From: Desulfobacteraceae bacterium 4572_35.2
GTDB lineage: Bacteria > Desulfobacterota > Desulfuromonadia > Desulfuromonadales > Desulfuromonadaceae
Assembly (NCBI GenBank): GCA_002084665.1
Contig: NBLY01000009.1
Span: forward strand, 1 to 40,546
DNA length: 40,546 nt
Reading direction: 5' to 3'
Made by a program: the position numbers and the translations under genes. The notes under the pieces are model-generated. The model worked only from the letters and a program-made list of their open reading frames with translations. It was not told where the DNA came from and did not search any database. The number at the start of each line of letters is the position of its first letter. The stretch's first letter is position 1. Of this stretch, positions 1,244 through 23,598 are shown one piece after another.

Positions 1244-1279
1244 CAAAAAAAGCACCTAGATCATTAGACCTAAGTGCTT
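1244..1279 (-). terminator. Rho-independent terminator after tRNA-Gly
   Basis: On the minus strand a 9-bp stem, AAGCACTTA pairing with TAGGTGCTT (one G-U pair), encloses a loop of about 12 nt and is followed by a run of T (complement of 1244-1250). It starts 9 bases after the encoded CCA end of the tRNA and so ends the cca-tRNA transcript before the helicase remnant. Confidence 0.85.
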
Positions 1280-1287
1280 GAATTTCT

Positions 1288-1362: not shown

Positions 1363-1400
1363 AATAGGTGAAGGAGTATATGTAACAGTGACCATGATTG

Positions 1401-2705: not shown

Positions 2706-2741
2706 ATATCCATAATGAATGAGTGTAACAATTGAGGTAAA

Positions 2742-3635: not shown

Positions 3636-3645
3636 GTAATTCTCC

Positions 3646-4461
3646 TTAGTTGTTTAAATAACGCTGTTCAAAAATTTGTAATTGTTTTGCAAGGTGTGCA
3701 AATTCAGTAATCGACAGCGTTTCCCCTCGTCGCTTCATATCAAGTTGTGCATTTTTTGCTGTAATGTCAACCACCTCGGCACTAAATCCTGCAGCACAGA
3801 GACAATTGCGTAACGTTTTACGCCGTTGGGCGAATGAGGCCTTAACGACACGGCGGAAAAAACCATCATCTTCAACCTCAACTCGCGGCGTTTGACGGCG
3901 ATCGAAACGCAGCACTTCGGACATCACCTTTGGCGGTGGTCGGAACGCACTGGGTGGCACAAGGGTAACACGGCTAATATCGAACCATAGCTGACACAAT
4001 ACAGTCAAGGAACCATACTCTTTTGAGCCGGGCTGCGCCCGCAGACGATCACCAACTTCCTTTTGAAACATCAGTATCATACGCGATATAAGTTGACGGT
4101 GAGTGATCATCTTAAACAATACCTGACTAGAAATATTGTAAGGAAGATTAGCGACCAACTTATAATCGGGTTGCTTTAGAATTTGGTTCCAATCGATTTT
4201 TAGGGCATCACCAACATGAACGTTAAGTTTTTCATCACCATTGTCAGTGAATTGTTGCGCCAAATCGCGGTCAATTTCAATTAAATCAAGACGCTGAATC
4301 AACGGTAACATTTTGTGCGTTAAAGCCCCCTGCCCCGGGCCGATCTCAAGAACATGATCGTTAGGTGAAAGTTCGGCAGCGGCAATAATATGATTGATAA
4401 TATTTTGATCAATTAGAAAATTTTGGCCAAATCGTTTCCGTGGCCGATGAAGTGTACTCAT
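3646..4461 (-). CDS. rsmA: 16S rRNA adenine dimethyltransferase RsmA (KsgA)
   Basis: A 271-residue SAM-dependent methyltransferase that dimethylates A1518 and A1519 in helix 45 of 16S rRNA during small-subunit maturation. Seen here are the N-terminal RFGQNFL (about 10-16), SAM-binding motif I LEIGPGQGALT (38-48), the acidic EID after strand 2, and catalytic motif IV NLPYN (105-109). Length is normal for KsgA. The ATG at 4461 overlaps the stop codon of the upstream DUF2062 gene by 4 bases (ATGA), indicating translational coupling. Confidence 0.96.
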   Translation of the reverse strand: MSTLHRPRKRFGQNFLIDQNIINHIIAAAELSPNDHVLEIGPGQGALTHKMLPLIQRLDLIEIDRDLAQQFTDNGDEKLNVHVGDALKIDWNQILKQPDYKLVANLPYNISSQVLFKMITHRQLISRMILMFQKEVGDRLRAQPGSKEYGSLTVLCQLWFDISRVTLVPPSAFRPPPKVMSEVLRFDRRQTPRVEVEDDGFFRRVVKASFAQRRKTLRNCLCAAGFSAEVVDITAKNAQLDMKRRGETLSITEFAHLAKQLQIFEQRYLNN

Positions 4462-4949
4462 TGATGTTTTACTCTCTTAAAAGGACGAGGCCAACGGGAG
4501 ATACGTAACGTTTTAAGGCTTGGCACCATCCGTAACACCACGGCATAAGAGACAGCGCCAAGAAGTAAACCGAAAACTACACTGCCTAAGCACATGGGAA
4601 CCAGCAGATTGTAGCCGAGTTCAGCGATGGACTCAGATGTAACGTGATGGGGAAAATGGATGTGCTCCATACCGAGAAAAAAGCGCCCCATTTCGTATTC
4701 AGCGGCATAAATTAATGGTGCTGTGATCGGATTGCTAATCCACACACCGACAGTGGCGGCAATTTTGTTCTGCCCTAAAAGCATAGCGACAAAAAATGCA
4801 ATCAACATTTGGAAACCAAGTGTAGGTGTCATGCCGATAAAAACCCCCAAAGCGAATCCTTTGGCAATTTCATCGGGCTGGGCGCGTAAACGCAACAAGC
4901 GCAACAACAGCAATTTAGATTGTCTAATAAGTCCCCATCGCCGCCACAT
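4458..4949 (-). CDS. DUF2062 family small membrane protein
   Basis: A 163-residue protein with the DUF2062 signature: FALGVFIGMTPTLGFQML followed by a hydrophobic segment, then GVWISNPITAPLIYAAEYEMG, and another hydrophobic stretch near residues 115-140. Members are small inner-membrane proteins of unknown biochemical role, often near glycosyltransferase or RNA-modification genes. It lies between tsaD, whose stop is 6 bp upstream, and rsmA, which it overlaps by 4 bp, so it belongs to this operon. Its function cannot be assigned. Confidence 0.85.
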   Translation of the reverse strand: MWRRWGLIRQSKLLLLRLLRLRAQPDEIAKGFALGVFIGMTPTLGFQMLIAFFVAMLLGQNKIAATVGVWISNPITAPLIYAAEYEMGRFFLGMEHIHFPHHVTSESIAELGYNLLVPMCLGSVVFGLLLGAVSYAVVLRMVPSLKTLRISRWPRPFKRVKHQ

Positions 4950-4955
4950 TGTGTT

Positions 4956-5999
4956 CTACCGCTTTGACCATGTGTCTGACTGCAACGGGCCGTCGACAGA
5001 ATCAAGAGGCCAGTTGGCCCGAGCATTTAAATCAAGCGGCGATGATAATCCACGACTCAAGTATTCATCACCGGCAACGGCTAGCATCGCTGCATTATCG
5101 GCACATAACAGTGGCGATGGAAAAAAGACATCGATATTTTTATCACAACCAAACTGTTGGAAGCGTTGGCGCAAGCCGCTATTACACGCGACACCACCGG
5201 CAACGGCAATGCGCGTTAGCCCTTGTTCGTGCGCAGCTTTAAATGTTTTGCGACTTAAGACATCGACAACAGCCTCTTGAAAACTAGCGGCAAGATGTTG
5301 CAGCGTTTGCTCCTCAAGGGGATGCTCAAGTTTTTTGATTTGATTCAGCACCGACGTTTTGATACCACTGAAACTAAAATCGAAACCTGGCCGATGTAAC
5401 ATGGGCCGTGGGAAATCAAAATATTTCGGGTCGCCCTGTTGCGCCAAGCGGTCAATCAAGGCACCGCCTGGGTAGGTTAACCCTGACATCTTAGCGATTT
5501 TATCAAAGGCCTCACCTGCCGCATCATCCAAAGTTTGACCAATGATCTGATACTGACCAATCCCCTCAACACGATACAGGTGGGTGTGGCCGCCAGAAAC
5601 CGCAAGGGCTAGATAGGGAAATTCAATTTGATGCTCTAAAAACGGTGCCAGAATGTGGCCTTCGATATGGTGGACACCAACCAGCGGAATCCCCAGTGCG
5701 TAAGCCATCGCCTTGGCATTGGACATACCGACAAGCAGCGCGCCAATGAGCCCGGGGCCAGCAGTGACAGCAATCCCTTCAATCTCGGCTAGTTCAACGC
5801 CAGCTTGCTGCAACGCCTGTTCGATAACAACAGGACAGGCCTCAAGGTGTTTACGGGCCGCGAGTTCAGGCACCACACCACCGTAACAGGCGTGGAGATC
5901 AACCTGAGAGGCAATAATATTGCTTAAAACCTCACGGCCATCGCGAACGACAGCCGCTGAGGTTTCATCACAAGAGGATTCAATAGTAAGTATCAGCAT
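4956..5999 (-). CDS. tsaD: tRNA threonylcarbamoyladenosine synthase subunit TsaD
   Basis: A 347-residue Kae1/Gcp ASKHA-fold protein that, with TsaB and TsaE, transfers threonylcarbamoyl from TC-AMP to A37 of ANN-decoding tRNAs. Motifs seen are LTIESSCDETSAAVV (4-18), AGPGLIGALLVG, and HHIEGH with metal-ligand histidines at 111 and 115, then AVSGGHTHL and the ATP-cleft segments DDAAGEAFDKIAK and VAGGVACNSGLR. Length and order match the bacterial protein. It starts at ATG 5999, 24 bp downstream of the phoH remnant. Confidence 0.96.
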   Translation of the reverse strand: MLILTIESSCDETSAAVVRDGREVLSNIIASQVDLHACYGGVVPELAARKHLEACPVVIEQALQQAGVELAEIEGIAVTAGPGLIGALLVGMSNAKAMAYALGIPLVGVHHIEGHILAPFLEHQIEFPYLALAVSGGHTHLYRVEGIGQYQIIGQTLDDAAGEAFDKIAKMSGLTYPGGALIDRLAQQGDPKYFDFPRPMLHRPGFDFSFSGIKTSVLNQIKKLEHPLEEQTLQHLAASFQEAVVDVLSRKTFKAAHEQGLTRIAVAGGVACNSGLRQRFQQFGCDKNIDVFFPSPLLCADNAAMLAVAGDEYLSRGLSSPLDLNARANWPLDSVDGPLQSDTWSKR

Positions 6000-6023
6000 C
6001 AGTCTTTTTTGTTATTAAATAGA

Positions 6024-7179
6024 TTAAAGCAAGTTAGCGGCGAGCTCTGACAAACCAGAACGTTCACCGTGCGTCAAGGTAACATGACCTGAGACCGACT
6101 GCTCCTTAAATTTTTCGACAATATACGCGAGGCCATTACTCGATGCATCGACGTATGGATTATCAATTTGGTAAGGATCGCCAGTTAAGACGATTTTTGT
6201 CCCCTCACCAACGCGAGTAATAATGGTTTTAATCTCATGCGGTGTCAAGTTTTGTGCCTCATCGACAATCATATATTGATTGGGGATCGAGCGGCCACGA
6301 ATGTAGGTAAGTGGCTCAATCTCCAGAATACCCATATCAACCAATTCACGGTAACCACGTTTACGCGTACCCCGCTCCTCTACTGCGCCAAGCAGCAGTT
6401 CAACATTGTCAAAAATAGGTTGCATCCACGGAGCCAACTTCTCCTCGACATCGCCGGGGAGAAAACCAAGGTCGCGTCCCATAGGAAATACCGGCCGAGA
6501 CACCAGCAGGCGGCTATATTCGCCATCATCAGCAGACTTTTGCAAGCCAGCAGCGATGGCTAACAGAGTTTTACCAGTGCCCGCCTTACCCACTAATGTC
6601 ACCAGTTGAACAGCAGGATTTAACAACAGATCAAGAGCGAACTGCTGTTCGCGGTTACGCGCTTGCAGACCCCATATCCCCTCTTTGGGAATTTTCACCA
6701 GCGGCTGCAACTTTTTCATTATCGCATCGTATCGTGCTAGTGCGGTATGGGAAGGATTACCTTCATCGACCAAGGTGATATATTGATGGGGCAATAACGT
6801 AGTAGCTTCATCTTCATCGAGAAAACCTTGACTATAAAATAGATCGACATCGGTCGCCGCGACGATGCGCTCACAGGTGCCGGTATAAAGTTCATCCCGC
6901 AGGCAAGTTCCCTACGTAACCATCAGCAATCAGTACCACCGTCAGAGTTCCACCATTTTCAAGAGCAACACCCTCAGTCAGGCTACCCTTAGTGCGTAAT
7001 TTATCCAACATGCGAGAGACATGACGCGCATTGCGACCAATTTCATTCAAATCTTTTTTAAAGGTATCAATCTCCTCAATCACTGTGATGGGGATATACA
7101 CCTCATTGTCTTCAAATTTAAGATAAGCTTGAGGATCATGTAACAACACGTTGGTATCAAGGATAAACTTTTTGGTCAT
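6024..7179 (-). pseudogene. PIN-PhoH family ATPase (YlaK type), split by internal deletion and frameshift
   Basis: The N-terminal piece (ATG at 7179) begins with the PIN-domain motif FILDTNVLLHDP and continues through VIEEIDTFK and GRNARHVSRMLD, but meets a stop near 6892. A second frame picks up at about 6895 with DELYTGTCERIVAATD and continues into a complete PhoH ATPase: Walker A GKAGTGKT, Walker B MIVDEAQNLTPHE and GDPYQIDNPY. In intact homologues I expect about 60-70 residues of PIN core (a DNxIL...VxLVSKDxNxRxKA segment) between GTLTVVLIADGYVGNLP and DELYTGT, and these are missing. The gene therefore carries a deletion of roughly 200 bp that also shifts the frame. The PhoH half could still be made from an internal start (ATG at 6794). 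Confidence 0.8.
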
Positions 7180-7205
7180 AATACCTCACCAGCTGGAGTC
7201 AATAA

Positions 7206-8387
7206 TCAAACAGATGCTGCAGACAAAGAGTCACCAATAATTTCAGTTATTGCAGTCAACAAACAATCGACCTCTTCTTGCGTATTAAAATACCCTGGAC
7301 TGATGCGAATCGTCCCCTGAGGAAACGATCCAATGGTGCGATGAGCGTCTGGAGAGCAGTGCAACCCAACCCGAGTGCCGATACCATAATGATGATCAAG
7401 CAAAAAACCCACTTCCGCAGGATCTCTTTTATCGATATTGAATGACACCACACCGCCTTCGGCTTCAACAGGACCATACAGAGTAACATTATCGAGCAAA
7501 GACAATCCGTTACGTAAACGATTTGTCAACTCTTGCTCATGCTGACAGATAGCGGCCATACCAACCTGCTCAACAAAATGGATTCCAGCACTAAGCGCCG
7601 CCAGTGCAGGGGTGTTTAATGTACCACACTCTAAATGTTCTGGCATCTGTTCAGGCTGTGTTAATTGGCTTGAAAATGTGCCAGTACCACCATATTTAAG
7701 CGGCTTAAGATGAATTTTCTCGTCAACGTACAAAAAACCAACACCCTGCGGCCCCATTAACGACTTATGTCCTGGGGCAGCGAGAAGATCAATGGCCATC
7801 GCCTCAACATCAATGGGAAACACTCCAGCACTCTGAGCTGCATCGACCATAAAGGTGATCCCCTGCTGGCGACACCAAGGGCCAATTTCACCAATCGGTT
7901 GTAACGTCCCCGTTACGTTGGAACAGTGACTCAACACAACAAGCTGTGTAGAAACACTACATGCCTGCTTAATATCTTCAACAGTTACTCGCCCTTGGCG
8001 GTCGGCCTGTACTTTTACAACCTCAACGCCACGCTGCTGAAGTTCATGTAATGGTCGCACCACAGCATTGTGTTCCATGCTGGTCGTTACAACGCGATCA
8101 CCCGGTTGCAACAAACCGAACAAAGCAACATTGATAGCTTCTGTAGCATTAAAGCTAAAGGCGACTTGAGCACAATCACTAATATTGAAAAAACGGGCCA
8201 GATCTAACCGAGCGCTAAGAACGATTTTAGCTGCTTGATGAGCTAAATAATGACCTCCTCGACCGGGGTTAGCACAACACGTACGTGAAATATGATCTTG
8301 AGCACGATAAACAGATTCAGGTTTGGGAAATGAGGTCGCTGCATTATCGAAATAAATGACAGTTTTCTCACCAGACTCAAATGACAT
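7206..8387 (-). CDS. Aminotransferase class V, cysteine desulfurase family
   Basis: A PLP enzyme of about 393 residues resembling NifS/SufS-type cysteine desulfurases, specifically the family of stand-alone 'cysteine desulfurase family proteins'. It carries IYFDNAATSFPKP at the N-terminus, the PLP aspartate block FMVDAAQSAG, the Schiff-base lysine in APGHKSLMGPQG, and GLHCSPDAHRTIG with the likely catalytic cysteine. It would take sulfur from cysteine for cofactor or tRNA thiolation, though the acceptor is unknown. The longest frame begins with TTG at 8399. I prefer ATG 8387 because GGAA lies 6 bases upstream. It is the first gene of the minus-strand run toward phoH and tsaD. Confidence 0.85.
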   Translation of the reverse strand: MSFESGEKTVIYFDNAATSFPKPESVYRAQDHISRTCCANPGRGGHYLAHQAAKIVLSARLDLARFFNISDCAQVAFSFNATEAINVALFGLLQPGDRVVTTSMEHNAVVRPLHELQQRGVEVVKVQADRQGRVTVEDIKQACSVSTQLVVLSHCSNVTGTLQPIGEIGPWCRQQGITFMVDAAQSAGVFPIDVEAMAIDLLAAPGHKSLMGPQGVGFLYVDEKIHLKPLKYGGTGTFSSQLTQPEQMPEHLECGTLNTPALAALSAGIHFVEQVGMAAICQHEQELTNRLRNGLSLLDNVTLYGPVEAEGGVVSFNIDKRDPAEVGFLLDHHYGIGTRVGLHCSPDAHRTIGSFPQGTIRISPGYFNTQEEVDCLLTAITEIIGDSLSAASV

Positions 8388-8552
8388 GATGTGTTCCAAT
8401 AGGGGAGGATTTAGTTAAAAAAAATGACAAAAATTAAAATACAATTCGAACAATAATTCTAGATTTTCCTGAAACTACCACCCCGCTTATGTTTAGGCAA
8501 CTTCATTCCATTATAGACTAATACGCGAGCGAAGACATGAACATTAACGCCG

Positions 8553-8608
8553 TTGACAGCCACGATATATTGTGTTTTAAATCCCCTCTTATACACAATG
8601 TAGTAAAA
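8553..8608 (+). promoter_or_regulatory. Promoter with two NrdR-like boxes upstream of nrdJ
   Basis: A -35 TTGACA (8553-8558) is followed after 17 bp by TTTAAA (8576-8581). The spacer contains the 16-mer CCACGATATATTGTGT (8560-8575), which matches 14 of 16 positions of the NrdR box consensus ACACWATATATWGTGT. A weaker second box (8593-8608, beginning ACACAATGTAGT, about 10/16) starts 33 bp later, three helical turns away, as is usual for NrdR box pairs. Repression of the reductase by NrdR-(d)ATP is inferred. Confidence 0.75.
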
Positions 8609-8635
8609 GGTTCCCCTCTTAAAAAGGACACGCAC

Positions 8636-10861
8636 ATGTCAAAAAGCATGAAAAATACAGCTCTACCTCTCACAAAAAATGCCCTCACCGTCCTCGAACG
8701 TCGCTACTTAAAGCGTGACGACAAAGGAAATGTTTTAGAAACACCAGCCAACATGTTTGAACGTGTCTCGCAAGCCATCGCCGGTGCTGAAACTGAATTT
8801 GATGAGAAAGCTGATGTCAAAAAACTTTCGACAAATTTTTATGGCATGATGGCCAATCTTGAATTTCTACCAAACTCACCAACATTGATGAATGCCGGTC
8901 GTGAACTCGGTCAACTTTCAGCCTGTTTTGTCCTACCCATTGCAGACTCAATGGAGAGTATTTTCGAAGCGATCAAAAATACCGCTCTAATCCATAAAAG
9001 TGGTGGCGGTACAGGTTTTTCATTTAGCCAGATCCGTCCAGTTAATGATGTTGTGCTGTCAACCAAGGGTGTTTCATCGGGGCCACTGTCATTCATGAAA
9101 GTGTTTGATGCGGCGACTGAAACCATCAAGCAAGGTGGAACCCGCCGCGGGGCCAACATGGGCATTCTGCGTGTTGATCATCCCGACATTATGGATTTCA
9201 TCATGTGCAAACGGGATCAAACGGTCCTAACAAACTTCAACATCTCTGTTGGTATGACGGAAGCCTTCATGGAGGCCGTTAAAACAGATAGCGAATATGA
9301 CATTATCAACCCGCGAACGAAAGAGGTGTGTAACCGTATGTCAGCGGTGAAAGTCTTTGATCACATCATTGATCTTGCTTGGAATAACGGCGAGCCGGGA
9401 ATTATCTTCCTTGACCGCTTAAATCGCGACAATCCCACACCTCATATCGGTGAGATTGAGAGTACCAACCCGTGCGGTGAGCAACCGTTACTACCTTACG
9501 AATCGTGCAACCTCGGCTCGATCAATCTTGCCAAAATGATCAAAAATGGTCAGGTTGATTGGGATAAGCTCAAGGAAACGGTACAGCTTGCTGTCCGATT
9601 TCTCGACAACGTCATTCAGGCGAATAATTATCCAATTCCTGAAATTGCTGAGATGTCCCTCGCCAACCGTAAAATTGGCCTCGGCATCATGGGTTGGGCT
9701 GACATGCTGATCCATTTAGGCATCTCATACCGCGAACAAGAGGCAACCGACCTCGGTGCAAAAGTGATGAAATTCATCAACGATGAATCACATGCTACCT
9801 CACGCAAGTTAGCCAAAGATCGCGGCGCATTCCCTAACTTTAAAGGCAGTGCTTTTGATAAGCGCCAAGAGCCAGAGATTCGCAATGCAACCTGCACCAC
9901 CATTGCACCAACAGGTACCATTTCAATTATCGCCAACAGCTCTAGCGGCATTGAGCCACTGTTTGCTGTCTCTTATGTGCGTCAGGTCATGGATGACGAC
10001 ATTCTTGTTGAGGTCAACCCATTATTTGAACAGATCGCCAAAGAGCGTGGTTTTTACTCTCTTGAACTGATGAAGCTGATTGCCGAAAAAGGGACGATCG
10101 CTGATTTTGATCAGATCCCTGAAGATATTCGCCGTATCTTCGTTACCGCACATGACATCACCCCTGAAGACCACATCCGCATGCAGGCGGCCTTCCAGCA
10201 ACACACCGACAATGCGGTGTCCAAAACAGTCAATTTTTGCAATGGTGCCACCCGTGACGATGTCGCCAATGTCTACCAACTCGCTTATCAAAGTGGCTGC
10301 AAAGGGGTAACAATCTACCGTGACGGTTCACGTGACCACCAAGTGTTGTCGGTCAAAAAGTCAGACGAAGGCTCAGAAATAGACATTCCGATGGAAAATA
10401 AAAAAGATGGCCGAAAACGTGATCGACCACGGACATTAAACGGTGCTACCTACCAGATGGAAACAGGCTGTGGACCATTATATATTACCATCAACGAAGA
10501 TCCACATGGTTTATTCGAGGTCTTTACCACGATGGGTAAAGCTGGTGGTTGTGCGGCATCTCAATGTGAAGCCTTAGGTCGTTTGGTTTCAATGGCATGG
10601 CGAAGTGGCGTACAAGCGCGCCAAACAGTTAAGCAGTTGGTGGGAATTTCGTGTCATAAGCCAGCTGGATTTGGCGCCAACCGTATCACCTCTTGTGCCG
10701 ATGCATTAGCCAAGGCGATCCAAATGCATATGCAAACAGAAGAGGAAGATTATCACCAACACATTGCTGGCGGTGGCGCGTGTCCAGAGTGTGGCGGCCC
10801 AGTTGAGCACGAAGGTGGCTGTAGTGTCTGTCACTCCTGTGGCTACTCTGAGTGTGCTTAA
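8636..10861 (+). CDS. nrdJ: Adenosylcobalamin-dependent (class II) ribonucleotide reductase
   Basis: A 741-residue reductase that makes deoxyribonucleotides using a B12-derived radical, with or without oxygen. The substrate and redox cysteines appear in GQLSACFVLPI and NPCGEQPLLPYESCNLGS, where NPCGE holds the radical-site Cys and Glu. Other conserved parts are KSGGGTGFSFSQIRP, GTRRGANMG and CTTIAPTGTISIIA. A TSCPD domain follows at about residues 600-690, and the C-terminus ends in a zinc-ribbon-like CPECGG...CSVCHSCGYSEC tail that probably shuttles electrons. An upstream in-frame ATG at 8537 exists, but it would place the promoter and NrdR boxes inside the gene. ATG 8636 has AGGA 7 bases upstream and is preferred. 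Confidence 0.95.
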   Translation: MSKSMKNTALPLTKNALTVLERRYLKRDDKGNVLETPANMFERVSQAIAGAETEFDEKADVKKLSTNFYGMMANLEFLPNSPTLMNAGRELGQLSACFVLPIADSMESIFEAIKNTALIHKSGGGTGFSFSQIRPVNDVVLSTKGVSSGPLSFMKVFDAATETIKQGGTRRGANMGILRVDHPDIMDFIMCKRDQTVLTNFNISVGMTEAFMEAVKTDSEYDIINPRTKEVCNRMSAVKVFDHIIDLAWNNGEPGIIFLDRLNRDNPTPHIGEIESTNPCGEQPLLPYESCNLGSINLAKMIKNGQVDWDKLKETVQLAVRFLDNVIQANNYPIPEIAEMSLANRKIGLGIMGWADMLIHLGISYREQEATDLGAKVMKFINDESHATSRKLAKDRGAFPNFKGSAFDKRQEPEIRNATCTTIAPTGTISIIANSSSGIEPLFAVSYVRQVMDDDILVEVNPLFEQIAKERGFYSLELMKLIAEKGTIADFDQIPEDIRRIFVTAHDITPEDHIRMQAAFQQHTDNAVSKTVNFCNGATRDDVANVYQLAYQSGCKGVTIYRDGSRDHQVLSVKKSDEGSEIDIPMENKKDGRKRDRPRTLNGATYQMETGCGPLYITINEDPHGLFEVFTTMGKAGGCAASQCEALGRLVSMAWRSGVQARQTVKQLVGISCHKPAGFGANRITSCADALAKAIQMHMQTEEEDYHQHIAGGGACPECGGPVEHEGGCSVCHSCGYSECA

Positions 10862-10926
10862 CAACTCGACAATGAGCAAAGGAACCGATTACATAGCGGT
10901 TTAATTAGCCCTTGAAAACATAATAC

Positions 10927-10956
10927 GGCAGGAAGGGCAACCTTCCTGCCTTTTTT
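10927..10956 (+). terminator. Terminator of nrdJ
   Basis: A perfect 10-bp stem, GGCAGGAAGG/CCTTCCTGCC, with a GCAA tetraloop is followed by TTTTTT. It lies 66 bp past the nrdJ stop and abuts the convergent thioesterase gene. Confidence 0.95.
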
Positions 10957-11374
10957 ATTGCTCTGCACTTGCGGACATCTTTTGTTGAACCAATTGATAA
11001 AAACTGTCTGAGAGCGCACTGGGATTCCCCTCACTATCCATAATAAGATGGCGCGTTGAACCATGAGCGATCAGAGTATCAGTGTCATCAACTACGCGAT
11101 AACTGAACTCCATCAACCGTTTTCTGAAGCGCTTTAAGCAGGTCACAACCGTCAAATTATTTTCATAATACGCAGGTTTAGCGAAGCGGCTAGCTAAATC
11201 AACAACCACAACAAAATAACCCTGCTGTTCCCACTGACTATAGGCCACATCTACTTTACGCAAAAAATCAGATCGACCCTCCTCAAACCAAACGGGATAA
11301 ACAGCATGGTGAACAATACCCTGAGCATCTGTTTCGGCATAACGAACGCGAATTTGTGTACGGTGTTCCATCAT
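10955..11374 (-). CDS. Acyl-CoA thioesterase, YbgC/FadM hot-dog family
   Basis: About 139 residues with the 4HBT hot-dog pattern: VRYAETDAQGIVHHAVYPVWFEEGR near the N-terminus. It contains the catalytic Asp of the D-x-x-G-x-V-H motif, then FAKPAYYENNLTVVT and RLMEFSYRVVDD. Such enzymes hydrolyse short or hydroxy acyl-CoA or acyl-ACP thioesters. The longest frame starts with TTG; the ATG at 11374 has GGAG 7 bases upstream and is chosen. It is divergent from the flavin-barrel/radical SAM/ketosynthase run and may serve the same acyl metabolism, which is inference from position only. Confidence 0.85.
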   Translation of the reverse strand: MMEHRTQIRVRYAETDAQGIVHHAVYPVWFEEGRSDFLRKVDVAYSQWEQQGYFVVVVDLASRFAKPAYYENNLTVVTCLKRFRKRLMEFSYRVVDDTDTLIAHGSTRHLIMDSEGNPSALSDSFYQLVQQKMSASAEQ

Positions 11375-11499
11375 TAACGATCTCCACAATATAGAAAATG
11401 TAACGTTTGATTAATTGTCGTTGCATGGCATGGGTATTTATATTACAAAACACTTCAAACTTCGATATGAAATACTCCCAACAAGCAACAAGGTTACCA

Positions 11500-11847
11500 T
11501 GTCCTTCGACCAGCAAAAATTTATCTCTGAACCCAAGCAAGTGTTCGGCTATAATGACAAGCGAGGGACAACTAATCTTAGCATTAGGTGACAATCGCTC
11601 GCTGAAAAATTTACACCAAAATCCGCTGGCAGTTTTTATAGCCTTTAAGGAAGCTGATTTTCTACCGGCTTGGCAAGGAGTTAGACTCTATTTGCAACTC
11701 GAAGAGATCAACTACGATGGCGCACTCAAAGAGCAACGCGTTGCCGAGATTAAGCAAACAGTTGGCAATCAAGCCGCAAAAATGATGGTTGCAGCAATAC
11801 GATTTTCTGTTTACGAAACACGCCCTCTTCTCGATATGTCAAACTAA
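11500..11847 (+). pseudogene. Pyridoxamine 5'-phosphate oxidase-like flavin split-barrel protein, apparently frameshifted
   Basis: The C-terminal two thirds match the PPOx-like split-barrel family: LILALGDNRSLKNLHQNP, PAWQGVRLYLQLEEI and the ending RPLLDM. The frame containing these can be read back to an ATG at 11407, but that extension looks unlike the family. The neighbouring frame starts at ATG 11500 behind AAGG and gives a family-like N-terminus (FISEPKQVFGYNDKRGTTNL) before stopping near 11589. I infer a small deletion around 11560-11590 that fused the two frames. If so the gene is inactive; alternatively the long frame is real with a divergent N-terminus. The stop lies 3 bp before the radical SAM gene. 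Confidence 0.55.
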
Positions 11848-11850
11848 CTC

Positions 11851-13158
11851 ATGAATATTCTACTGGTAAATCCACCTAATAGCGGTCGCAGCATCCCAGA
11901 AGAGCGCTACGGCCTTGATTCTCTTAAGCAAATATTTCGCGGTGAACCTCTTGGGTTGGAAGTATTAGCCAGCTACTTAGATGATCACGAGGTAAAAATA
12001 ATTGACCTAAAAGCTGAACCGCACAGCTTCAACGCTACCCTCGTAGAGTTCAAGCCAGACATTGTTGCATTTACAACGATGACCTGTGAAGCGAACGCAG
12101 TGGTTGCCTTGGCGAGTGAGGTTAAACAGCACGGCAACATCACTACCATTGTCGGTGGCATTCACGCCAGTAACGACCCTAATTTTTTCAACCAGAGTAT
12201 GTTCGATTATGTAGTTATCGGCTTAGGGCAACAATCACTACCTGAGCTAGTAACACTACTTAGTCAGTCAACAAACCAACAACTAACTGCACCAGTTGTA
12301 GCTGGGGTGGCTAAAACATCAAGACAACAACCGCTAACGTGGACAGCGAGAAAATTCAAAACTAAAGACTACTCTCAAAGTAAAGCACCACGCTACGATT
12401 TAACTTCCCAGTACCGCGACAGCTATTTCTTGCCGAATTTACAGGTACACATGGGCTATGTCGTTACCGCTTACGGTTGCCCATACCGCTGCTCATTTTG
12501 TTCAATTGCTGGGCAAGCTGGCGGCCAATATCTCTGTCAAAGTAACGAAAATGTGGTGCGCGACCTACAATGCCTTGACAATATTCCATTTATTAGGCTC
12601 GTTGATGCCAACACCTTTGGCTCAATTAGCCACGCACGGCAACTGTGTCGCTCAATTGAAGATGCAGGGATCAATAAACAGTTCCTCATTGATGTTCGTG
12701 CCGATACCGTTGTTCGCCATCCTGAGTTATTAGAAGAGTGGAAAAAGATTGGCTTGCGTTCTGTGGTGATCGGCTTTGAAGAGATCAGTGATAAACGCCT
12801 GACAGCCATGAACAAAGAGGGGAGCACCGCGCTAAACAGCGAAGCTCTTCGGATTTTAAATCAGCTGGGCATCACCGTTGTGGGTGACTTTATTGTTGAT
12901 CCCGATTATGATGATGACGATTTTGACCAACTTGAAAGCTATATCACCTCACATCAAATCGATCTGCCAATGTTAACCATTCTAACCCCGCTACCTGGGA
13001 CAGAATTATATGGACAGATGAAGCAGCAAATATGTGAACACAATCTTGATTACTATACTTTGACCAACGCTGTAACCTCTACACGGTTAAGTGAGAAACG
13101 TTTTTACAGTCGCTATTCTGACTTAATGCGTTCATGTCATAACAAAGCTAAAATTTAG
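11851..13158 (+). CDS. B12-binding-domain radical SAM protein
   Basis: A 435-residue protein with an N-terminal Rossmann-like cobalamin-binding region (about 1-150: MNILLVNPPNSG, EPLGLEVLASYL, IVGGIHAS) followed by a radical SAM core. Its cluster-binding motif is CPYRCSFC (Cys 210, 214, 217). The cobalamin loop DxHxxG is not obvious, as in many class B relatives, so actual B12 binding is not assured. Characterised relatives methylate or rearrange unactivated carbons; the substrate here is unknown. The next gene is a FabH-like ketosynthase 8 bp downstream with its own TTAGGA ribosome site, so lipid or polyketide tailoring is a reasonable guess. Confidence 0.82.
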   Translation: MNILLVNPPNSGRSIPEERYGLDSLKQIFRGEPLGLEVLASYLDDHEVKIIDLKAEPHSFNATLVEFKPDIVAFTTMTCEANAVVALASEVKQHGNITTIVGGIHASNDPNFFNQSMFDYVVIGLGQQSLPELVTLLSQSTNQQLTAPVVAGVAKTSRQQPLTWTARKFKTKDYSQSKAPRYDLTSQYRDSYFLPNLQVHMGYVVTAYGCPYRCSFCSIAGQAGGQYLCQSNENVVRDLQCLDNIPFIRLVDANTFGSISHARQLCRSIEDAGINKQFLIDVRADTVVRHPELLEEWKKIGLRSVVIGFEEISDKRLTAMNKEGSTALNSEALRILNQLGITVVGDFIVDPDYDDDDFDQLESYITSHQIDLPMLTILTPLPGTELYGQMKQQICEHNLDYYTLTNAVTSTRLSEKRFYSRYSDLMRSCHNKAKI

Positions 13159-13166
13159 GAACAAAC

Positions 13167-14315
13167 ATGGAAGCCTACATTACCGACATCTCCGCCTTTC
13201 TACCCAATTCTGCCATCAGCAACAACGAAATGGAGAAAATTCTAGGATTGGTTGACAATATTCCGTCACGAACACGTCGTATTATTCTGCGTAATAATAA
13301 AATTTTACAACGGTATTATGCGATCGATCCCGATACCTTTGAACCTACCCATAGCAATGCAGAGTTGACTGCTGAAGCAGTTCGAATGTTGCGCCCCACC
13401 GCCGATTTCAAATTAGATCAGATCGAGTGTTTATGCTGTGGCACCTCATCTGCTGATCAGCTTATGCCGGGTCATGCATCAATGGTACATGGTGAATTGG
13501 CCTGCGGCCCGTGTGAAGTTGTTTCGACTGCAGGTATCTGCCTTTGTGGCGTTACGGCATTAAAGCAAGCATGTATGCAAGTCGCCCTTGGCGAGTCAAA
13601 AAACGCTGTCGCGACAGGTTCAGAGCTGGTGACAACATTTATGCGTGCTGCAATGTGTGGTCAGGTAGAGCAGAAACGCTCAGAAGAGCTTCAAAATCAG
13701 CCGGCACTCTCATTCGATGCCGATTTTTTACGCTGGATGTTATCAGATGGTGCTGGCGCTGCATTTATCAGCCCAACACCAGCAGAGGTGGGCCATTCAC
13801 TAAAAGTAGAATGGATCGATCAACTCTCCAGCGCGCATGAGCTTGAAACCTGTATGTACGCAGGAGCAGTTAAAACTGAAACAGGGGAGATTAAAGGCTG
13901 GCGCACATTTCCATCACTGCAACAAGCTGTCGATGAAAAAGCTTTTTTGATTAAGCAGGACGTAAAACTTCTCAATGAGGAGATTATCCCCACAGCAGTA
14001 GACCGTACACTGCTGCCTATTGCAACTAAACGCGGACTTAAGCCGGACGAGGTCACATGGTTTGTGCCCCACTACTCTTCAGATTATTTCAGGGATAGGC
14101 TTTACCAAAGAATGGCTGAAAAAGGATTTCACATCCCATATGAGCGTTGGTTTACAAATTTAACCACTAAGGGAAACACCGGCGCAGCATCAATATATAT
14201 AATGCTAGAAGAACTGTTTCATTCAGACAAACTGAACAAGGGGGACAGAGTTCTCTGTTTCATCCCAGAAAGTGGTCGGTTTTCGATCTGCTACATGCTT
14301 CTTACTGTCGTATAG
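13167..14315 (+). CDS. FabH-like beta-ketoacyl synthase III family protein
   Basis: A 382-residue thiolase-fold protein. The expected Cys-His-Asn triad can be placed at Cys125 (STAGICLCGVTAL), His302 (FVPHYSSDYF) and Asn337 (KGNTGAASI). The opening, ITDISAFLPNSAISNNEME, followed by an RTRRIILRNN-like basic stretch, resembles the ketosynthases of specialised lipid/resorcinol pathways (DarB-like) more than housekeeping FabH. It would condense an acyl starter with a malonyl or ketoacyl thioester. It is coupled to the radical SAM gene. No acyl carrier protein or tailoring oxidase is adjacent, so the product is unknown. Confidence 0.82.
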   Translation: MEAYITDISAFLPNSAISNNEMEKILGLVDNIPSRTRRIILRNNKILQRYYAIDPDTFEPTHSNAELTAEAVRMLRPTADFKLDQIECLCCGTSSADQLMPGHASMVHGELACGPCEVVSTAGICLCGVTALKQACMQVALGESKNAVATGSELVTTFMRAAMCGQVEQKRSEELQNQPALSFDADFLRWMLSDGAGAAFISPTPAEVGHSLKVEWIDQLSSAHELETCMYAGAVKTETGEIKGWRTFPSLQQAVDEKAFLIKQDVKLLNEEIIPTAVDRTLLPIATKRGLKPDEVTWFVPHYSSDYFRDRLYQRMAEKGFHIPYERWFTNLTTKGNTGAASIYIMLEELFHSDKLNKGDRVLCFIPESGRFSICYMLLTVV

Positions 14316-14363
14316 CACTGTAATCGCCAGCTTAAAACACTGCTGGTCAAAGAATACAGTGCT
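14314..14363. terminator. Nested inverted repeat between convergent stop codons
   Basis: AGCACTGTA (14314-14322) pairs perfectly with TACAGTGCT (14355-14363), and inside it CCAGC pairs with GCTGG around a 10-nt loop. The outer arms overlap the ends of the ketosynthase and HU-family genes. There is no clear U tract, so it is either a bidirectional transcription barrier or an mRNA-end stabiliser. Confidence 0.5.
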
Positions 14364-14638
14364 CAACCATCAACACGCTCACGCAGTTCTTTACCAACCT
14401 TGAAAAATGGAAGCTTTTTAGTCTTAACCTGAATGGCTGCACCTGTTTTTGGATTACGGCCAACATAAGACCTATAATCCTTTACCACAAAGCTACCGAA
14501 GCCACGAATCTCTATGCGCCCACCTTTAATCAACTCCTCAGTCATGGTGTCAAACATTAGATTAATAATCTCCTCCGCCTTTTTGTAGGTCAAGTCTTGT
14601 TGCAATGATAACGCTTCAACCAACTCAGATTTATTCAT
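14363..14638 (-). CDS. HU/IHF family DNA-bending protein
   Basis: A 91-residue histone-like protein beginning MNKSELVEAL with the HU/IHF hallmark GRIEIRGFGSF and the DNA-arm sequence YVGRNPKTGAAIQV. The wording of the arm and the dimerising helices resemble IHF-beta (HimD) more than HU, but the call is not firm. The ATG at 14638 is preceded by GGAGG 5 bases upstream, so the longer frame from 14665 is rejected. It is monocistronic, with a nested inverted repeat at its 3' end. Confidence 0.9.
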   Translation of the reverse strand: MNKSELVEALSLQQDLTYKKAEEIINLMFDTMTEELIKGGRIEIRGFGSFVVKDYRSYVGRNPKTGAAIQVKTKKLPFFKVGKELRERVDG

Positions 14639-14768
14639 AGAACCTCCAACAAGGTGTGGGACCATAAAAAAAGAATCTTAAATAAAACGCCAAACTACCA
14701 TCATTAACCTACTTAAACATACAGTATTCGCAGGCTGTGTCAATACGTGATCTATGTGAATTTATTAT

Positions 14769-15335
14769 TTAAATTACGGTAAACGGCGAGAGTGTCCACA
14801 TAACCTTAGCTTCATCATCGCCACTGTTAACCCAAGAATGGGGAAGGTGTGATTTAAAGGATAAACTATCGCCCGGATTTAACGTATAGACTTCATCTAT
14901 AATCTCAACTGTCAGTTGCCCCTCAAGTAAGTAAATCAGCTCATCACCGGGATGATGCATTGGGGCAACACCACTTTTCCCACCCTTTAACACCGTACTA
15001 TAAAACGCCGAGAACTGCGGATCTCGTAAGCCTGAGGTGAAGGATTCCGTCAACATGTTTGAGCTATCTTCATAAACCGTCGCGTCGCGCTGTCCTTGCG
15101 TAGTAAAAACAACTTCATGGGTCGTGTTCACCTCTTCAACGAAGTAATCAACACTTTTATCAAAGACAGTCGCCAACTTCATCAAAATCGCGACGGATGG
15201 AATCGTTAGGCCTCTCTCGACTCGTGAGATCATATTAGATGAAACACCTGAGCTGGTGGCAAGTTGTTGAATTGTTAAATCACTACCAAGACGGATCGAT
15301 TTAAGTTTTTTACCGATAATTTTGCGCAATTTCAT
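14769..15335 (-). CDS. XRE-family HTH regulator with C-terminal cupin (copy 1)
   Basis: About 188 residues. The N-terminal helix-turn-helix (about 12-65) shows LTIQQLATSSGVSSNMISRVERG followed by PSVAILMKLATVF. The C-terminal cupin-2 barrel (about 105-185) shows APMHHPGDELIYLLEGQ and LNPGDSLSFKSHLPHSWVN. This architecture (SutR/PuuR-like) normally senses a small metabolite in the barrel and represses nearby uptake or catabolic genes; the ligand is unknown. ATG 15335 sits behind a GAGGAG site and 10 bp after the stop of its paralogue, so I reject the longer frame from 15368. Confidence 0.87.
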   Translation of the reverse strand: MKLRKIIGKKLKSIRLGSDLTIQQLATSSGVSSNMISRVERGLTIPSVAILMKLATVFDKSVDYFVEEVNTTHEVVFTTQGQRDATVYEDSSNMLTESFTSGLRDPQFSAFYSTVLKGGKSGVAPMHHPGDELIYLLEGQLTVEIIDEVYTLNPGDSLSFKSHLPHSWVNSGDDEAKVMWTLSPFTVI

Positions 15336-15345
15336 CGCTTGCTCC

Positions 15346-15921
15346 TCATGCTTGTTGCTGAGCGACACTTGGGGCTGGAGAAACTACCCACATCACCAAA
15401 GTTTGTCCATCAAAGGTATTAACCCAACGATGGGGAAGATTTGCCTTAAATGAGATTGAATCTCCTTCAGACAGCAAATAACTCTCGCCCTCAAATATAA
15501 GTTGCATTTGCCCCTCATGGACCATCGCAAATTCCTCACCAACATGAACCATATCACCTTCACCACTACTACAACCAGGTTCAAGCGTTTCGTGAAAAAC
15601 GGTAAAGCCAGGATCACGCAACCCTTGCGTTAGGCTGACAATCTGATGTTTATCTTCGAAAAAGAAAATAGGCTCCCCTTTACCTTTCGGGGTATAAACG
15701 ACTGTCGAACCTTTTTCAGCCTCCTCAACAAAATAACTGATGCTCATGCCAAAAGAGGTGGCTAACTTCATCAAAATTTCAACGGACGGTGTCGTAAGTC
15801 CACGTTCAATACGCGAAATCATATTGGATGACACTTGAGACTTGTTGGCTAAACCCTCAATCGTCATATCGTTATTTAACCGCATCTTTTTAAGCTTTTT
15901 ACCAATCAGTTCCTTGACCAT
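15346..15921 (-). CDS. XRE-family HTH regulator with C-terminal cupin (copy 2)
   Basis: About 191 residues with the same layout as the downstream gene. The HTH reads MTIEGLANKSQVSSNMISRIERG and PSVEILMKLATSFGMS; the cupin contains MVHVGEEFAMVHEGQ and LSEGDSISFKANLPHRWVN. The two proteins align along their whole length, so this is a tandem duplication that has diverged, especially between the two domains. The ATG at 15921 with AAGGG upstream is preferred over the 20-codon longer frame. They form a two-gene operon and may form heteromers or respond to related ligands (inference). Confidence 0.87.
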   Translation of the reverse strand: MVKELIGKKLKKMRLNNDMTIEGLANKSQVSSNMISRIERGLTTPSVEILMKLATSFGMSISYFVEEAEKGSTVVYTPKGKGEPIFFFEDKHQIVSLTQGLRDPGFTVFHETLEPGCSSGEGDMVHVGEEFAMVHEGQMQLIFEGESYLLSEGDSISFKANLPHRWVNTFDGQTLVMWVVSPAPSVAQQQA

Positions 15922-16262
15922 CACAATACCCTTTCGATAACAATAGAATGTTGTTTTACCATCCACCCCTACTACTGTCAATCACAAGTATTAAAACTTT
16001 GTAGTCATAGTGTCATTCGCTTATTAAAACAGCACTCCCCCCATTAACTAGGCTACCAAATGTGCACCAACACTAATCGTTTTAATATCAAACCATAATT
16101 TAAAGTAACAGCCTGAAATGTGTTATCGCGAAAAAGATACTTTAAATATTCATAAATACTATTATTGACATAACAGAATGGTCATTCAGGGTTTTAACTA
16201 TCGAAATACGCCATTAGGCTTAAATTCACCTTAATATCAGCTGGTTTCACATGGCTAGCTAC
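15922..16262. other. Intergenic, no gene seen
   Basis: About 340 bp of AT-rich sequence upstream of the HTH-cupin pair. I see no supported coding region or RNA. It presumably holds the regulator promoter on the minus strand and possibly autoregulatory operators, but I could not identify a convincing palindrome. Confidence 0.5.
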
Positions 16263-16290
16263 TTGACAAGGAAATTATTGCAGCTACAAT
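16263..16290 (+). promoter_or_regulatory. Sigma-70-type promoter of a small ORF
   Basis: TTGACA (16263-16268), a 16-bp spacer and TACAAT (16285-16290) form a near-consensus promoter. The predicted start near 16297 leaves a leader of about 26 nt before the small ORF at 16323. Confidence 0.7.
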
Positions 16291-16322
16291 TTTTACTAAA
16301 GAGACGAAAATAGGGAGAAATA

Positions 16323-16429
16323 ATGACATATTTGCTTCAAAAAAAAGTGGCAATCGCATAAAGGCAGGATTTGCTAGAAATTGCACCAAACATGGCATGC
16401 CCTGTGCATTTTACATAGATAAGTCTTAA
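16323..16429 (+). CDS. Putative 36-residue Cys-containing small protein interrupted by an A8 slippery run
   Basis: An ATG at 16323 stands 5 bases after AGGGAG. In the starting frame it ends after 12 codons (MTYLLQKKVAIA). A -1 shift on the run of eight A residues (near 16337-16347) opens the continuation SGNRIKAGFARNCTKHGMPC then AFYIDKS, stopping at 16427-16429. The shifted part is basic, contains two Cys and looks protein-like. The unit has its own promoter and terminator. It may be a real small gene with programmed slippage, a gene with a one-base homopolymer indel, a leader peptide, or a small RNA. I recognise no family. Confidence 0.4.
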
Positions 16430-16455
16430 AACAAAGAAACAACGTACTTCATTTG

Positions 16456-16497
16456 AGCCTCGGTGCTTTCTCCTCCTTAGCCCGAGGCTATTTTTTT
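16456..16497 (+). terminator. Terminator of the small-ORF unit
   Basis: AGCCTCGG (16456-16463) pairs perfectly with CCGAGGCT (16482-16489) and is followed by ATTTTTTT. It faces plus and has no other plus-strand gene upstream except the small ORF, supporting a genuine short transcript of about 200 nt. Confidence 0.85.
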
Positions 16498-16544
16498 CAC
16501 TTACACCCTCCTGAACTTAGCCCATATTGCCGTCGATTTAAAAT

Positions 16545-17300
16545 TTAACCGCGCCGTCGCCCTGGCCAGTCCTTAACACTCTGCGAAAGCTGCTTAACCA
16601 CACCACGAAGCATATTCAATTCTTTAATATTGGGTCTTGCTTTCGCCAGCAAACTGCGCAACATGCCACTAAACACTTCAGGACGACTCGGGTTGCTATA
16701 GCCAATTCGATTTACCAATAGATCAACTTGATTCATCAGTGCTTCGGTATCGTTATGCGACGGCAGCGGCTGTACAGCATCAACACTCTCCGGCATTTCA
16801 TAGGTACGCTCACAACTCATCTCATACAGGGTCACCACCACAGCTTGAGCTAAATTAAGAGACCCTTTCGAGCCAAGCACACCCGAAGTTGGGATGGTTG
16901 CCGCATGCGAACACTGAGCCACCTCTTCGGTACTCAAACCACAATCTTCACGGCCAAACACAAGACCGACACGACTCTGATCAGGTAAGGTGGTAATCAA
17001 CGGTTGAATTGCGGCAATAGGATGCAATTCACCGCGCAAACGACCACAACGACGCGTCAAGGCGACAGTCATGGTTAAGTCTGCCACAGCATCACTCAAC
17101 GTTTCATGCAACGTTGCTTGCCCCAATAATAGTTTTGCATCAACAGCAAACTTAACCGCTTCAGGATGAAAACGATCACAAGGGTTCACTAAACGCAGAT
17201 CAGTCACGCCAAAGTTAGCCATCGCACGACAGACGGCACCAATGTTGCCCGGTTGACGTGGCGCAACTAAAACAACTGCAAATTTCGATAAATCAATCAT
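16545..17300 (-). CDS. trmJ: TrmJ-type tRNA (cytidine/uridine-32-2'-O)-methyltransferase
   Basis: About 251 residues of SPOUT-class methyltransferase. Seen are VLVAPRQPGNIGAVCRAMANFG near the N-terminus, LVFGREDCGLS (motif 2) and the trefoil-knot segment SLNLAQAVVVTLYEM (motif 3). TrmJ 2'-O-methylates position 32 of several tRNAs, and the C-terminal extension with KARPNIKELNMLRG supports TrmJ over other TrmH-like enzymes. GTG 17306 is too close to the GAGG site, whereas ATG 17300 has 8-base spacing and is preferred. Confidence 0.88.
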   Translation of the reverse strand: MIDLSKFAVVLVAPRQPGNIGAVCRAMANFGVTDLRLVNPCDRFHPEAVKFAVDAKLLLGQATLHETLSDAVADLTMTVALTRRCGRLRGELHPIAAIQPLITTLPDQSRVGLVFGREDCGLSTEEVAQCSHAATIPTSGVLGSKGSLNLAQAVVVTLYEMSCERTYEMPESVDAVQPLPSHNDTEALMNQVDLLVNRIGYSNPSRPEVFSGMLRSLLAKARPNIKELNMLRGVVKQLSQSVKDWPGRRRG

Positions 17301-17331
17301 CAACACATCCTCTACCCATTTATTTACAAAT

Positions 17332-17359
17332 AAAAAGGGCGCCTCAATTGGGCACCCTT
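17332..17359 (-). terminator. Terminator after the FadL-family gene
   Basis: On the minus strand AAGGGTGCC and GGCGCCCTT form a stem (with G-U pairing) around a short AT-rich loop, followed by TTTTTATTT. It lies 28 bp after the porin stop codon. Confidence 0.8.
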
Positions 17360-17386
17360 ATATACAAATATATCTAACTCAACCGA

Positions 17387-18700
17387 TTAAAAGAAAAAGG
17401 TCAAATTTGCCGCAAACAGGTGGGCATCACTTTCGTAGGTTCCTGTTTGGATCTCATTATCAACCTTACGCTCATCAAAATCGACCCACATATAAGCAAA
17501 GTCAATAACAGCGCGCTCGGTATGATAGCCAACACCAAAGGTATAGTTATTGCGGTCTGAATCTGGCAATTCTGGCCCCATGGTCGCATCGGGGACAGGA
17601 GAATTGTCGCGGGCATAACCTATACGCAGATCAAAACTATCCGTTAGCTCATATTGAGCACCGAGGCGGTAAGCCCAGACATCGTTCCAATCTTTGCCAT
17701 TCAACGAATCAGGTAAAACATCGTTGTTTGCAAAAATGATATCTAAGCTATCGTAAGAACTCCAACCAAAATAATCGGCATCACACTCAACGGTTAAGCG
17801 CTCCATCGGTTTCCACGCCACAGCAAAACTCCATGTATCAGGTAGGGTAATCTCTGTTTTAGCTTTAACATCATACACTGCACTTGAAAGAGCACCTTGG
17901 CCGTAAGGGGTCATCAGATAATCAGCATCGCCATCAAAATCGAGTTCAATTTCACTACGGTATGCGAAACCTATTGAAACCGTTTCAATAGGTTTCCATA
18001 ACAGACCAAAGTTATAGCCCCAGCCATCACCATCAGCTTCAATTTCTACTTCACCAAGTTGCGCTGAAGTGGTTCCTGACGCTCCCAAACCAACAGCAAC
18101 ACCATCAATATTTGTTGTTTTTTCCAACACTACCTGAGCATAGGTGTAATCAACCCCCACACCGATAGAAAGATTCCACTTGTCAAAGCGATAGGCAACC
18201 GTTGGATTGACATTGATCGGTTTAATGGCAATTTCAATAATTTCATCACGGAACGGGCTATTGTTAGCCCAACTTTTGGCTAACGGATAGAGGGAACCGA
18301 TACCGACCCCAAAAGCCCAAGGTGAATCGGGCTCAGAGATGGTGGCATAAAAATTAGGTGGGAAAAACACATCAGACCGTGCTTCGGTATCAACAGCGAT
18401 TGTTTCGCCCAAAAAAGCAGGACTCGCATCGGACTGACCAATATTGGTCGTACCTTTAAAGGTTGTTTCAGGAACATTAACTACCGTGACACCGAGACTT
18501 ACCTGGGTACCACTTTGAAAGGCAAGCCCCGCTGGATTATAAAAAATCGCTGACGGGTCATCGGCCTGAGCAACAAACGCATTGGCCATCCCCATGGCCT
18601 TTGCACCCTGCTCACGGATATGAAATCCTGCGCCACATACAATTGTCGGTACCAACAGCACCATCAATACAACAACAGTTAATCTACTCTTCAAATGCAT
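17387..18700 (-). CDS. OmpP1/FadL/TodX family outer-membrane porin
   Basis: A 437-residue protein with a signal peptide (basic MHLKSR, then a hydrophobic run of about 15 residues ending near Ala24). The mature N-terminus GFHIREQGAKAMGMANAFVA and DDPSAIFYNPAGLAFQSGTQ are diagnostic of FadL, whose N-terminal hatch plugs the barrel. Repeated amphipathic beta strands follow (SIGFAYRSEIELDF, YTFGVGYHTERAVIDFAYMW) and the chain ends in FFF, the outer-membrane insertion signal. The family passes fatty acids or other hydrophobic compounds through the outer membrane; the actual substrate is unknown. It is a single gene with its own terminator. Confidence 0.93.
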   Translation of the reverse strand: MHLKSRLTVVVLMVLLVPTIVCGAGFHIREQGAKAMGMANAFVAQADDPSAIFYNPAGLAFQSGTQVSLGVTVVNVPETTFKGTTNIGQSDASPAFLGETIAVDTEARSDVFFPPNFYATISEPDSPWAFGVGIGSLYPLAKSWANNSPFRDEIIEIAIKPINVNPTVAYRFDKWNLSIGVGVDYTYAQVVLEKTTNIDGVAVGLGASGTTSAQLGEVEIEADGDGWGYNFGLLWKPIETVSIGFAYRSEIELDFDGDADYLMTPYGQGALSSAVYDVKAKTEITLPDTWSFAVAWKPMERLTVECDADYFGWSSYDSLDIIFANNDVLPDSLNGKDWNDVWAYRLGAQYELTDSFDLRIGYARDNSPVPDATMGPELPDSDRNNYTFGVGYHTERAVIDFAYMWVDFDERKVDNEIQTGTYESDAHLFAANLTFFF

Positions 18701-23234: not shown

Positions 23235-23598
23235 GTGAGTAACTCGCACAAGCGTTATCTGACTCCCACACATTGACCTCTTGTACGGTAACGTTATCGC
23301 TATTCAAAATTGTTTCGAGTTTTTCAAAGAGGTAACGAGAGATATTTTCAGATGAAGGACTGTTTTCAATAAATGGCTCAAGCTCATTCAAATATTTATG
23401 ATCAAGAGTCCCTAACAACTCCTTTGTTTTACCCTTAAGAATTTTAAAATCAATTCCAAGGCCTGAGTTATCAAGTTCCTTAGCCTTAACAGTTACCTCA
23501 ACCTTCCAGTTATGTCCGTGTAAATTTTCACAATCACCATCATAATTAATCAAGTTGTGAGCTGCCGCAAAATTAGTACAAATCTTCAAGTTATACAT
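23227..23598 (-). CDS. queD: 6-carboxytetrahydropterin synthase QueD
   Basis: A 123-residue PTPS-family enzyme converting dihydroneopterin triphosphate to 6-carboxytetrahydropterin. The zinc-binding histidines are seen in FAAAHNL and LHGHNW, the catalytic cysteine in GDCENLHGH, and the catalytic DHKYLNEL loop follows near residue 70. It precedes queE directly, so two consecutive queuosine-pathway steps are coexpressed. No preQ1 riboswitch is visible upstream, where yacG lies 32 bp away. Confidence 0.94.
   Translation of the reverse strand: MYNLKICTNFAAAHNLINYDGDCENLHGHNWKVEVTVKAKELDNSGLGIDFKILKGKTKELLGTLDHKYLNELEPFIENSPSSENISRYLFEKLETILNSDNVTVQEVNVWESDNACASYSRD

Follow-up and report, generated by a model that had tools for sequence, protein, structure and literature searches.

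A B12-type radical SAM gene in the place of darA before a DarB-family ketosynthase: a candidate variant of the dialkylresorcinol pathway

The closest described relatives of the locus analysed here are the dar modules for arcuflavin (Azoarcus sp. BH72) and the flexirubins (Chitinophaga/Flavobacterium). These have in common with it a DarB-type ketosynthase, a DarG-family protein and a BtrH-type DarE/DarH protein (PMC3949708, PMC3992019), together with an ABC ATPase and permease, ACP and KS genes, which keep the same order where DarA is retained. The published Azoarcus order is darA-darB-darD-darE-darF-darI-darC-darJ, with an extra darG and darH between darF and darI, and DarA is named there as the 'DAR-aromatase' (PMC3949708). 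In Pseudomonas, darA mutants and darB mutants both lose the resorcinol (PMC6403133), and heterologous expression of darB and darA from C. pinensis yields dialkylresorcinol (DAR) (PMC3992019). Since darA is needed for the resorcinol in these systems, something must replace it wherever it is missing. We analysed a stretch of 40,546 nucleotides from the anaerobe Desulfobacteraceae bacterium 4572_35.2 (hereafter the window), which forms contig C53 of a 1.9 Mb genome that is 80% complete. The window's lineage differs from the described modules in that it lacks darA and carries a B12-type radical SAM gene at its place, and in the window's genus the module also stands apart from the remaining dar genes.

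The gene pair and its surroundings

The pair consists of two forward-strand genes separated by 8 nt. The downstream gene (13167-14315, ATG start, 382 aa) encodes a ketosynthase/cyclase of the StlD/DarB family, which scores 565 bits against the corresponding model NF005293 (cut-off 450). Its closest solved structure is StlD (PDB 5gk0; E 3e-116), with which it shares full-length homology and the catalytic Cys-His-Asn, whereas the partner enzyme of StlD is a different one. The catalytic residues Cys125 (codon 13539-13541, aligned with the StlD cysteine), His302 (14070-14072) and Asn337 (14175-14177) show no variation across 29 aligned proteins and match the StlD positions. The protein remains below the cut-off of the model for DarB sensu stricto (NF053539; 478 bits, cut-off 550) and far below that for FabH (TIGR00747; 69.9 bits, cut-off 292). 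The sequence-only reading had described a DarB-like ketosynthase 8 bp from a radical SAM gene, both with intact motifs, and each element of this description holds for the two ORFs (11851-13158 and 13167-14315). A phage search with the ketosynthase gave no match, and its plasmid matches lie in different StlD-like contexts, all lacking the radical SAM gene. Among these, a Streptomyces plasmid (L164, 6001-9816) carries a plasmid-borne DAR-like cluster, in which a DarB-like ketosynthase precedes a DarA-like protein with the annotation 'hypothetical', and an FAD monooxygenase and a P450 are encoded nearby. On Bacteroides and Prevotella plasmids (L163, L161), the gene immediately before an StlD/DarB-like ketosynthase encodes an HTH or TetR regulator, and no biosynthetic partner is apparent.

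The upstream gene (11851-13158, ATG start, 435 aa), which occupies the darA position, encodes a protein with B12-binding (68.5 bits, cut-off 32.1) and Radical_SAM (44.4 bits, cut-off 29.5) domains in Pfam. The B12-binding Rossmann domain covers residues 31-133 (11941-12249). The [4Fe-4S] motif CPYRCSFC (12478-12501), preceded by a glycine, supplies C210, C214 and C217, which are invariant across 106 aligned proteins; Cys79-Glu80 within the B12 domain is likewise invariant in this alignment. With both domains and the CX3CX2C motif, the protein belongs to the cobalamin-dependent radical SAM enzymes. Cobalamin binding itself is not certain, because AprD4, a close structural neighbor, carries such a B12-type domain without cobalamin. 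Every score against a named family falls below the family cut-off: the nearest is the hopanoid C-3 methylase HpnR (TIGR04367; 177.7 bits, cut-off 650), and the BchE model reaches 111 bits. The window's protein thus shares its B12-binding and radical SAM architecture with HpnR, BchE and HpnJ but falls into a distinct group tied to DarB. The solved folds nearest to its AlphaFold model (pLDDT 84) are TsrM, MgmA, OxsB and AprD4; the model also resembles CysS and TokK, and the best TM-score (0.74) is to the non-methylating AprD4. As these neighbors include both methylases and non-methylases, the fold does not decide the reaction. The protein is 92% identical to the copy in 'Desulfuromonadales bacterium C00003068', the nearest named loci belong to Desulfuromonas/Desulfuromonadales MAGs, and no match was recovered from the plasmids searched. 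Several relatives also carry a paralogous B12-type radical SAM gene of ~455 aa (L216, 6283-7641; L217, 5992-7371; L218, 5927-7285), which adjoins a TetR-like regulator and has no DarB linkage.

Divergent to the pair on the reverse strand lies the thioesterase gene that had been pointed out from the sequence, a YbgC/FadM-type 4HBT member (10955-11389). Its membership in the pathway is uncertain, because it adjoins the pair only in the window's genus and one close relative. Alignment with siblings identified the remnant of a PNPOx-like, flavin-binding gene (11499-11847, forward strand) in front of the radical SAM gene. This is the first gene of the operon in the siblings, scoring above the PNPOx_N cut-off when intact, and it is broken in the window by a net loss of 53 nt after its start at 11499 (compared with sibling G005/L045). 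The ORF at 11407-11847 (146 aa, TTG start), which had led the sequence-only reading to begin its range at 11407, is an artefact of this break with its first part out of frame. The PNPOx-like gene looks accessory, because tblastn did not find it in most loci outside the order; being absent from most loci searched and broken in the window, its product was set aside as a candidate aromatase. Farther upstream of the pair, a ribonucleotide reductase gene with a TSCPD domain (8537-10861) is conserved in the genus. Tandem HTH-cupin paralogues (14769-15368 and 15346-15981; 49% identical), which are possible regulators, are kept together with an HU gene beside the pair across the whole genus. A reverse-strand gene (22494-23273) gives a weak radical SAM/Fer4_12 match under the Pfam cut-off and possibly encodes an activating enzyme.

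Radical SAM and DarA at the same position

Examination of the gene-pair neighborhood across bacteria revealed strict conservation of the pairing. The radical SAM gene directly precedes 103 distinct StlD/DarB-family ketosynthases in Desulfuromonadales, Desulfobulbales/Desulfobulbaceae, Geobacter, Syntrophus and related bacteria; the few carriers under other names (Neptunomonas, Verrucomicrobia, Holophagaceae) come from MAG bins whose assignment may be wrong. Carriers that can be cultured include Desulfuromusa kysingii, Desulfobulbus rhabdoformis and Geothermobacter hydrogeniphilus. When loci of relatives were fetched by the ketosynthase, the radical SAM gene lay upstream in all those with enough upstream sequence except G058. 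Conversely, an alignment-based contig scan for the radical SAM gene—a single-sequence query having given no match—found a ketosynthase after it in 79/79 named loci with downstream sequence, mostly within 30 nt. At one locus (L221, G126:C121:22000-32100, at 7405-10093) the radical SAM gene is followed by a seemingly degraded darB, and the module there may be decaying. The sequence-only reading was to fall if the ketosynthase proved to be a housekeeping FabH and the pair lacked conservation, and neither is the case. That a FabH and an unrelated radical SAM gene merely stand side by side by chance has negligible probability: the family scores and the pairing with 103 distinct ketosynthases speak against it and rule out both FabH identity and chance adjacency.

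A phylum-wide sample of 395 genomes, drawn by the ketosynthase alone and regardless of the radical SAM gene, yielded a DarB-family ketosynthase in 33. Immediately upstream of these 33 ketosynthase genes stood the radical SAM gene in 19 loci (16 newly fetched and 3 seen before) and a DarA-like gene in 14, with no locus carrying both and none carrying neither. The 14 DarA-type loci encode a flavodoxin-like protein of ~300 aa (MKKVLVLYYSQSGQL...) at exactly the place of the radical SAM gene, one of them (L196) being counted from a contig that holds only the end of this gene. Among 123 distinct ketosynthases, after removal of identical ones, 103 are of the radical-SAM type, 13 of the DarA type, 7 of neither and 0 of both; the two genes are mutually exclusive at this position. 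Of the seven without either, four are distant StlD-like genes borne on plasmids; the others are one contig end, one IMG/VR contig with a prophage in front of the ketosynthase, and G058. On an IMG/VR contig (L181, 2340-9616), a darB-darG pair comes directly after a prophage, which occupies the expected darA place. Complete DarA-type loci run in the order DarA, DarB, DarG-family, BtrH, ABC ATPase, permease, ACP, KS. Because this order matches that of Azoarcus apart from the two extra genes, the flavodoxin-like gene upstream of DarB is taken as DarA, an assignment based on synteny and fold; the protein has no DarA match in NCBIfam and only weak flavodoxin-type matches in Pfam and PDB. NF053537, NF053538 and NF053540, considered as DarA models, turned out to be other families.

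No DarA-like protein was found in the window's genome (80% complete) or in 147 relatives, except in G058, and no genome among the 147 holds the radical SAM gene and DarA together. A DarAB dialkylresorcinol module, a darA gene with darB, was thus not found in the window's genome, which has the radical SAM gene in DarA's place. The exception, a genome of the window's order, is the sole DarB genome among these relatives without a match to the radical SAM family. Its ketosynthase is nearest to the radical-SAM-type ones but has other genes upstream, and a DarA-like gene lies on another contig of similar G+C. As G058 is a MAG of 84% completeness, we treat it as supporting, not as proof. On the ketosynthase trees, the radical-SAM and DarA labels require a single change, as against three on the DarH tree, a difference that counts against the reading favored below and would fit an exchange of modules among clusters. 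Two genomes of one genus (G489 and G507) are not of the same type, which likewise indicates that the module can be exchanged.

The remaining dar genes and the ladderane-type clusters

Beyond the genus of the window, a recurrent, conserved group of genes is often found next to the pair. It encodes an ABC-2 permease with an ATPase, a protein of the BtrH_N/DUF4872 type (470 bits against DarH, cut-off 300) and a member of the DarG family (94 bits, cut-off 70). The group further includes ACPs, a PagL-like protein, FabF-type KS pairs, an MMPL exporter, LolA, lipid A-type and glycerol-phosphate-type acyltransferases and an FlxY-like ligase, the last at 410 bits and thus under its cut-off of 520. Such kinds of genes occur in flexirubin and arcuflavin clusters (PMC3949708, PMC3992019). 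In the window's genome the dar-cluster genes lie apart from the pair on contig C15, where DarG_fam (128.7 bits, cut-off 70) and DarH (460 bits, cut-off 300) mark a putative flexirubin/DAR-polyene cluster, the product of which would be a DAR ester of an aryl polyene. The sequence-only reading was locally correct in finding no carrier protein or known partner adjacent to the pair; the partners are on this other contig. The cluster (L165, G000:C15:14700-34693, at 48-17572) includes three consecutive B12-type radical SAM genes, a GT2+DUF2062 gene, a lipid A-type acyltransferase, ACPs, KS pairs, DarG, DarH and ABC genes, of which the permease gene has an apparent frameshift (16073-16612 / 16503-17282). 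A gene resembling phage antirepressor-type (Bro-N-like) proteins (1710-2624) and an AAA-type ATPase gene (9213-10943) appear to be insertions in it.

These associations bear on the idea, put forward from the sequence, of an undescribed acyl product, taken here as a free-standing metabolite with no tie to the polyene genes. A separation that fits such independence is seen in the window's genus, where single-contig genomes have the DarH gene ~92-107 kb from the pair. Against it, the phylogenetic profile of the pair is near-identical to that of DarH (DarB in 44/147 relatives, DarH in 44/147, 41 common to both, including genomes where they are unlinked), and many other lineages show direct linkage to the dar cluster. 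We consider the free-standing product improbable and replace the orphan pair of the sequence-only reading, which as a whole is partly supported, with what is most likely the part of a flexirubin/arcuflavin-type cluster that forms DAR.

A protein encoded on contig C15 also matches TIGR04072 (rSAM_ladder_B12) at 665 bits (cut-off 360), and a relative of it lies near the pair in L119. Similar clusters of Desulfotalea, Geobacter and Pelobacter appear in Rattray et al. 2009 and have been compared with the anammox ladderane genes (PMC2649909), and the function of the Desulfobacterota 'ladderane' clusters was still reported as unknown in 2023 (PMC9902471). What these clusters have in common with the loci analysed here is the TIGR04072 radical SAM protein, a CrtI-like desaturase, a ligase and KS genes, which lie in one neighborhood or in related ones (PMC2649909, PMC9902471). 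A ladderane-like or polyunsaturated hydrocarbon product, as proposed for the related Desulfotalea and Kuenenia clusters, nevertheless seems very improbable here: no ladderanes were found in Desulfotalea (PMC2649909), and a DAR ester is the product indicated by the DarB, DarG and DarH families, which for their part have no bearing on the anammox cluster itself. For the ladderane-like clusters that carry DarB/DarG/DarH, the gene content suggests a DAR-polyene product rather than ladderanes.

Predicted role of the radical SAM protein

We favor, with moderate confidence, the view that the pair supplies the DAR in a flexirubin/arcuflavin-like polyene-dialkylresorcinol pathway, with the radical SAM protein acting on the ring instead of DarA. 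Most likely, this protein either performs DarA's step, the aromatisation of the cyclohexanedione made by DarB, or modifies the ring in a linked step. By analogy with the established StlD/DarB reaction, the ketosynthase would condense and cyclise two acyl thioesters to a 2,5-dialkyl-cyclohexane-1,3-dione. The radical SAM protein, replacing the flavodoxin-like DarA, would then remove two electrons via a 5'-deoxyadenosyl radical to convert the ring to a resorcinol. Judging from family names and cluster content, DarH would esterify the resorcinol with a polyene acid, itself presumably made by the KS/ACP genes on the other contig. The radical SAM protein is the only enzyme always added where DarA is missing; the most economical reading is aromatisation by radical dehydrogenation or a linked modification of the ring.

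Oxygen as an explanation for the choice between DarA and radical SAM is unsupported, and so is the simple scenario in which anaerobes replaced an O2-dependent enzyme. COX1 is present in 5/14 DarA-type genomes (one by a weak, interrupted match), 9/14 being without cytochrome oxidase, and in roughly every second genome of the radical-SAM type. That COX1 does not track the swap lowers, without removing, the case for a straightforward replacement of DarA, and leaves methylation as a live rival. The radical SAM protein would then be a cobalamin-dependent C-methyltransferase of the ring or side chain, with another flavoprotein (e.g. the PNPOx-like one) aromatising the ring or the dione persisting as such. 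Most known cobalamin radical SAM (class B) enzymes are methylases (PMC13142503), the best-scoring family, HpnR, is one, and TsrM, MgmA, TokK and CysS are among the near structural neighbors; a PNPOx-like gene also precedes the pair in some loci. This gene was, however, not found in most loci and is broken in the window, the top TM-score goes to a non-methylating enzyme, and an added methylase would explain neither the absence of DarA nor the zero loci with both genes. We rate methylation as unlikely, though well ahead of a free-standing product.

Aromatisation or a linked ring modification in place of DarA thus remains our preferred reading, and we regard the locus as a real and testable variant of the known DAR pathway, with the radical SAM reaction as its predicted element. 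The open-access literature searched contained no description of a DarA-to-radical SAM swap or of this pairing. More tentatively, it is possible that the radical SAM protein aromatises the DarB dione in place of DarA and, at the same time, that many Desulfobacterota 'ladderane-type' clusters are radical-SAM-rich polyene-dialkylresorcinol pathways. The occurrence of DarA or radical SAM before the same ketosynthase family amounts to a natural experiment. The proposal would give a widespread, unnamed radical SAM family a concrete metabolic place and predicts an unrecognised reaction for it. It would likewise provide a testable product class for those gene clusters that, in sulfate and metal reducers, have been labelled ladderane-like with an unknown product (PMC2649909, PMC9902471).
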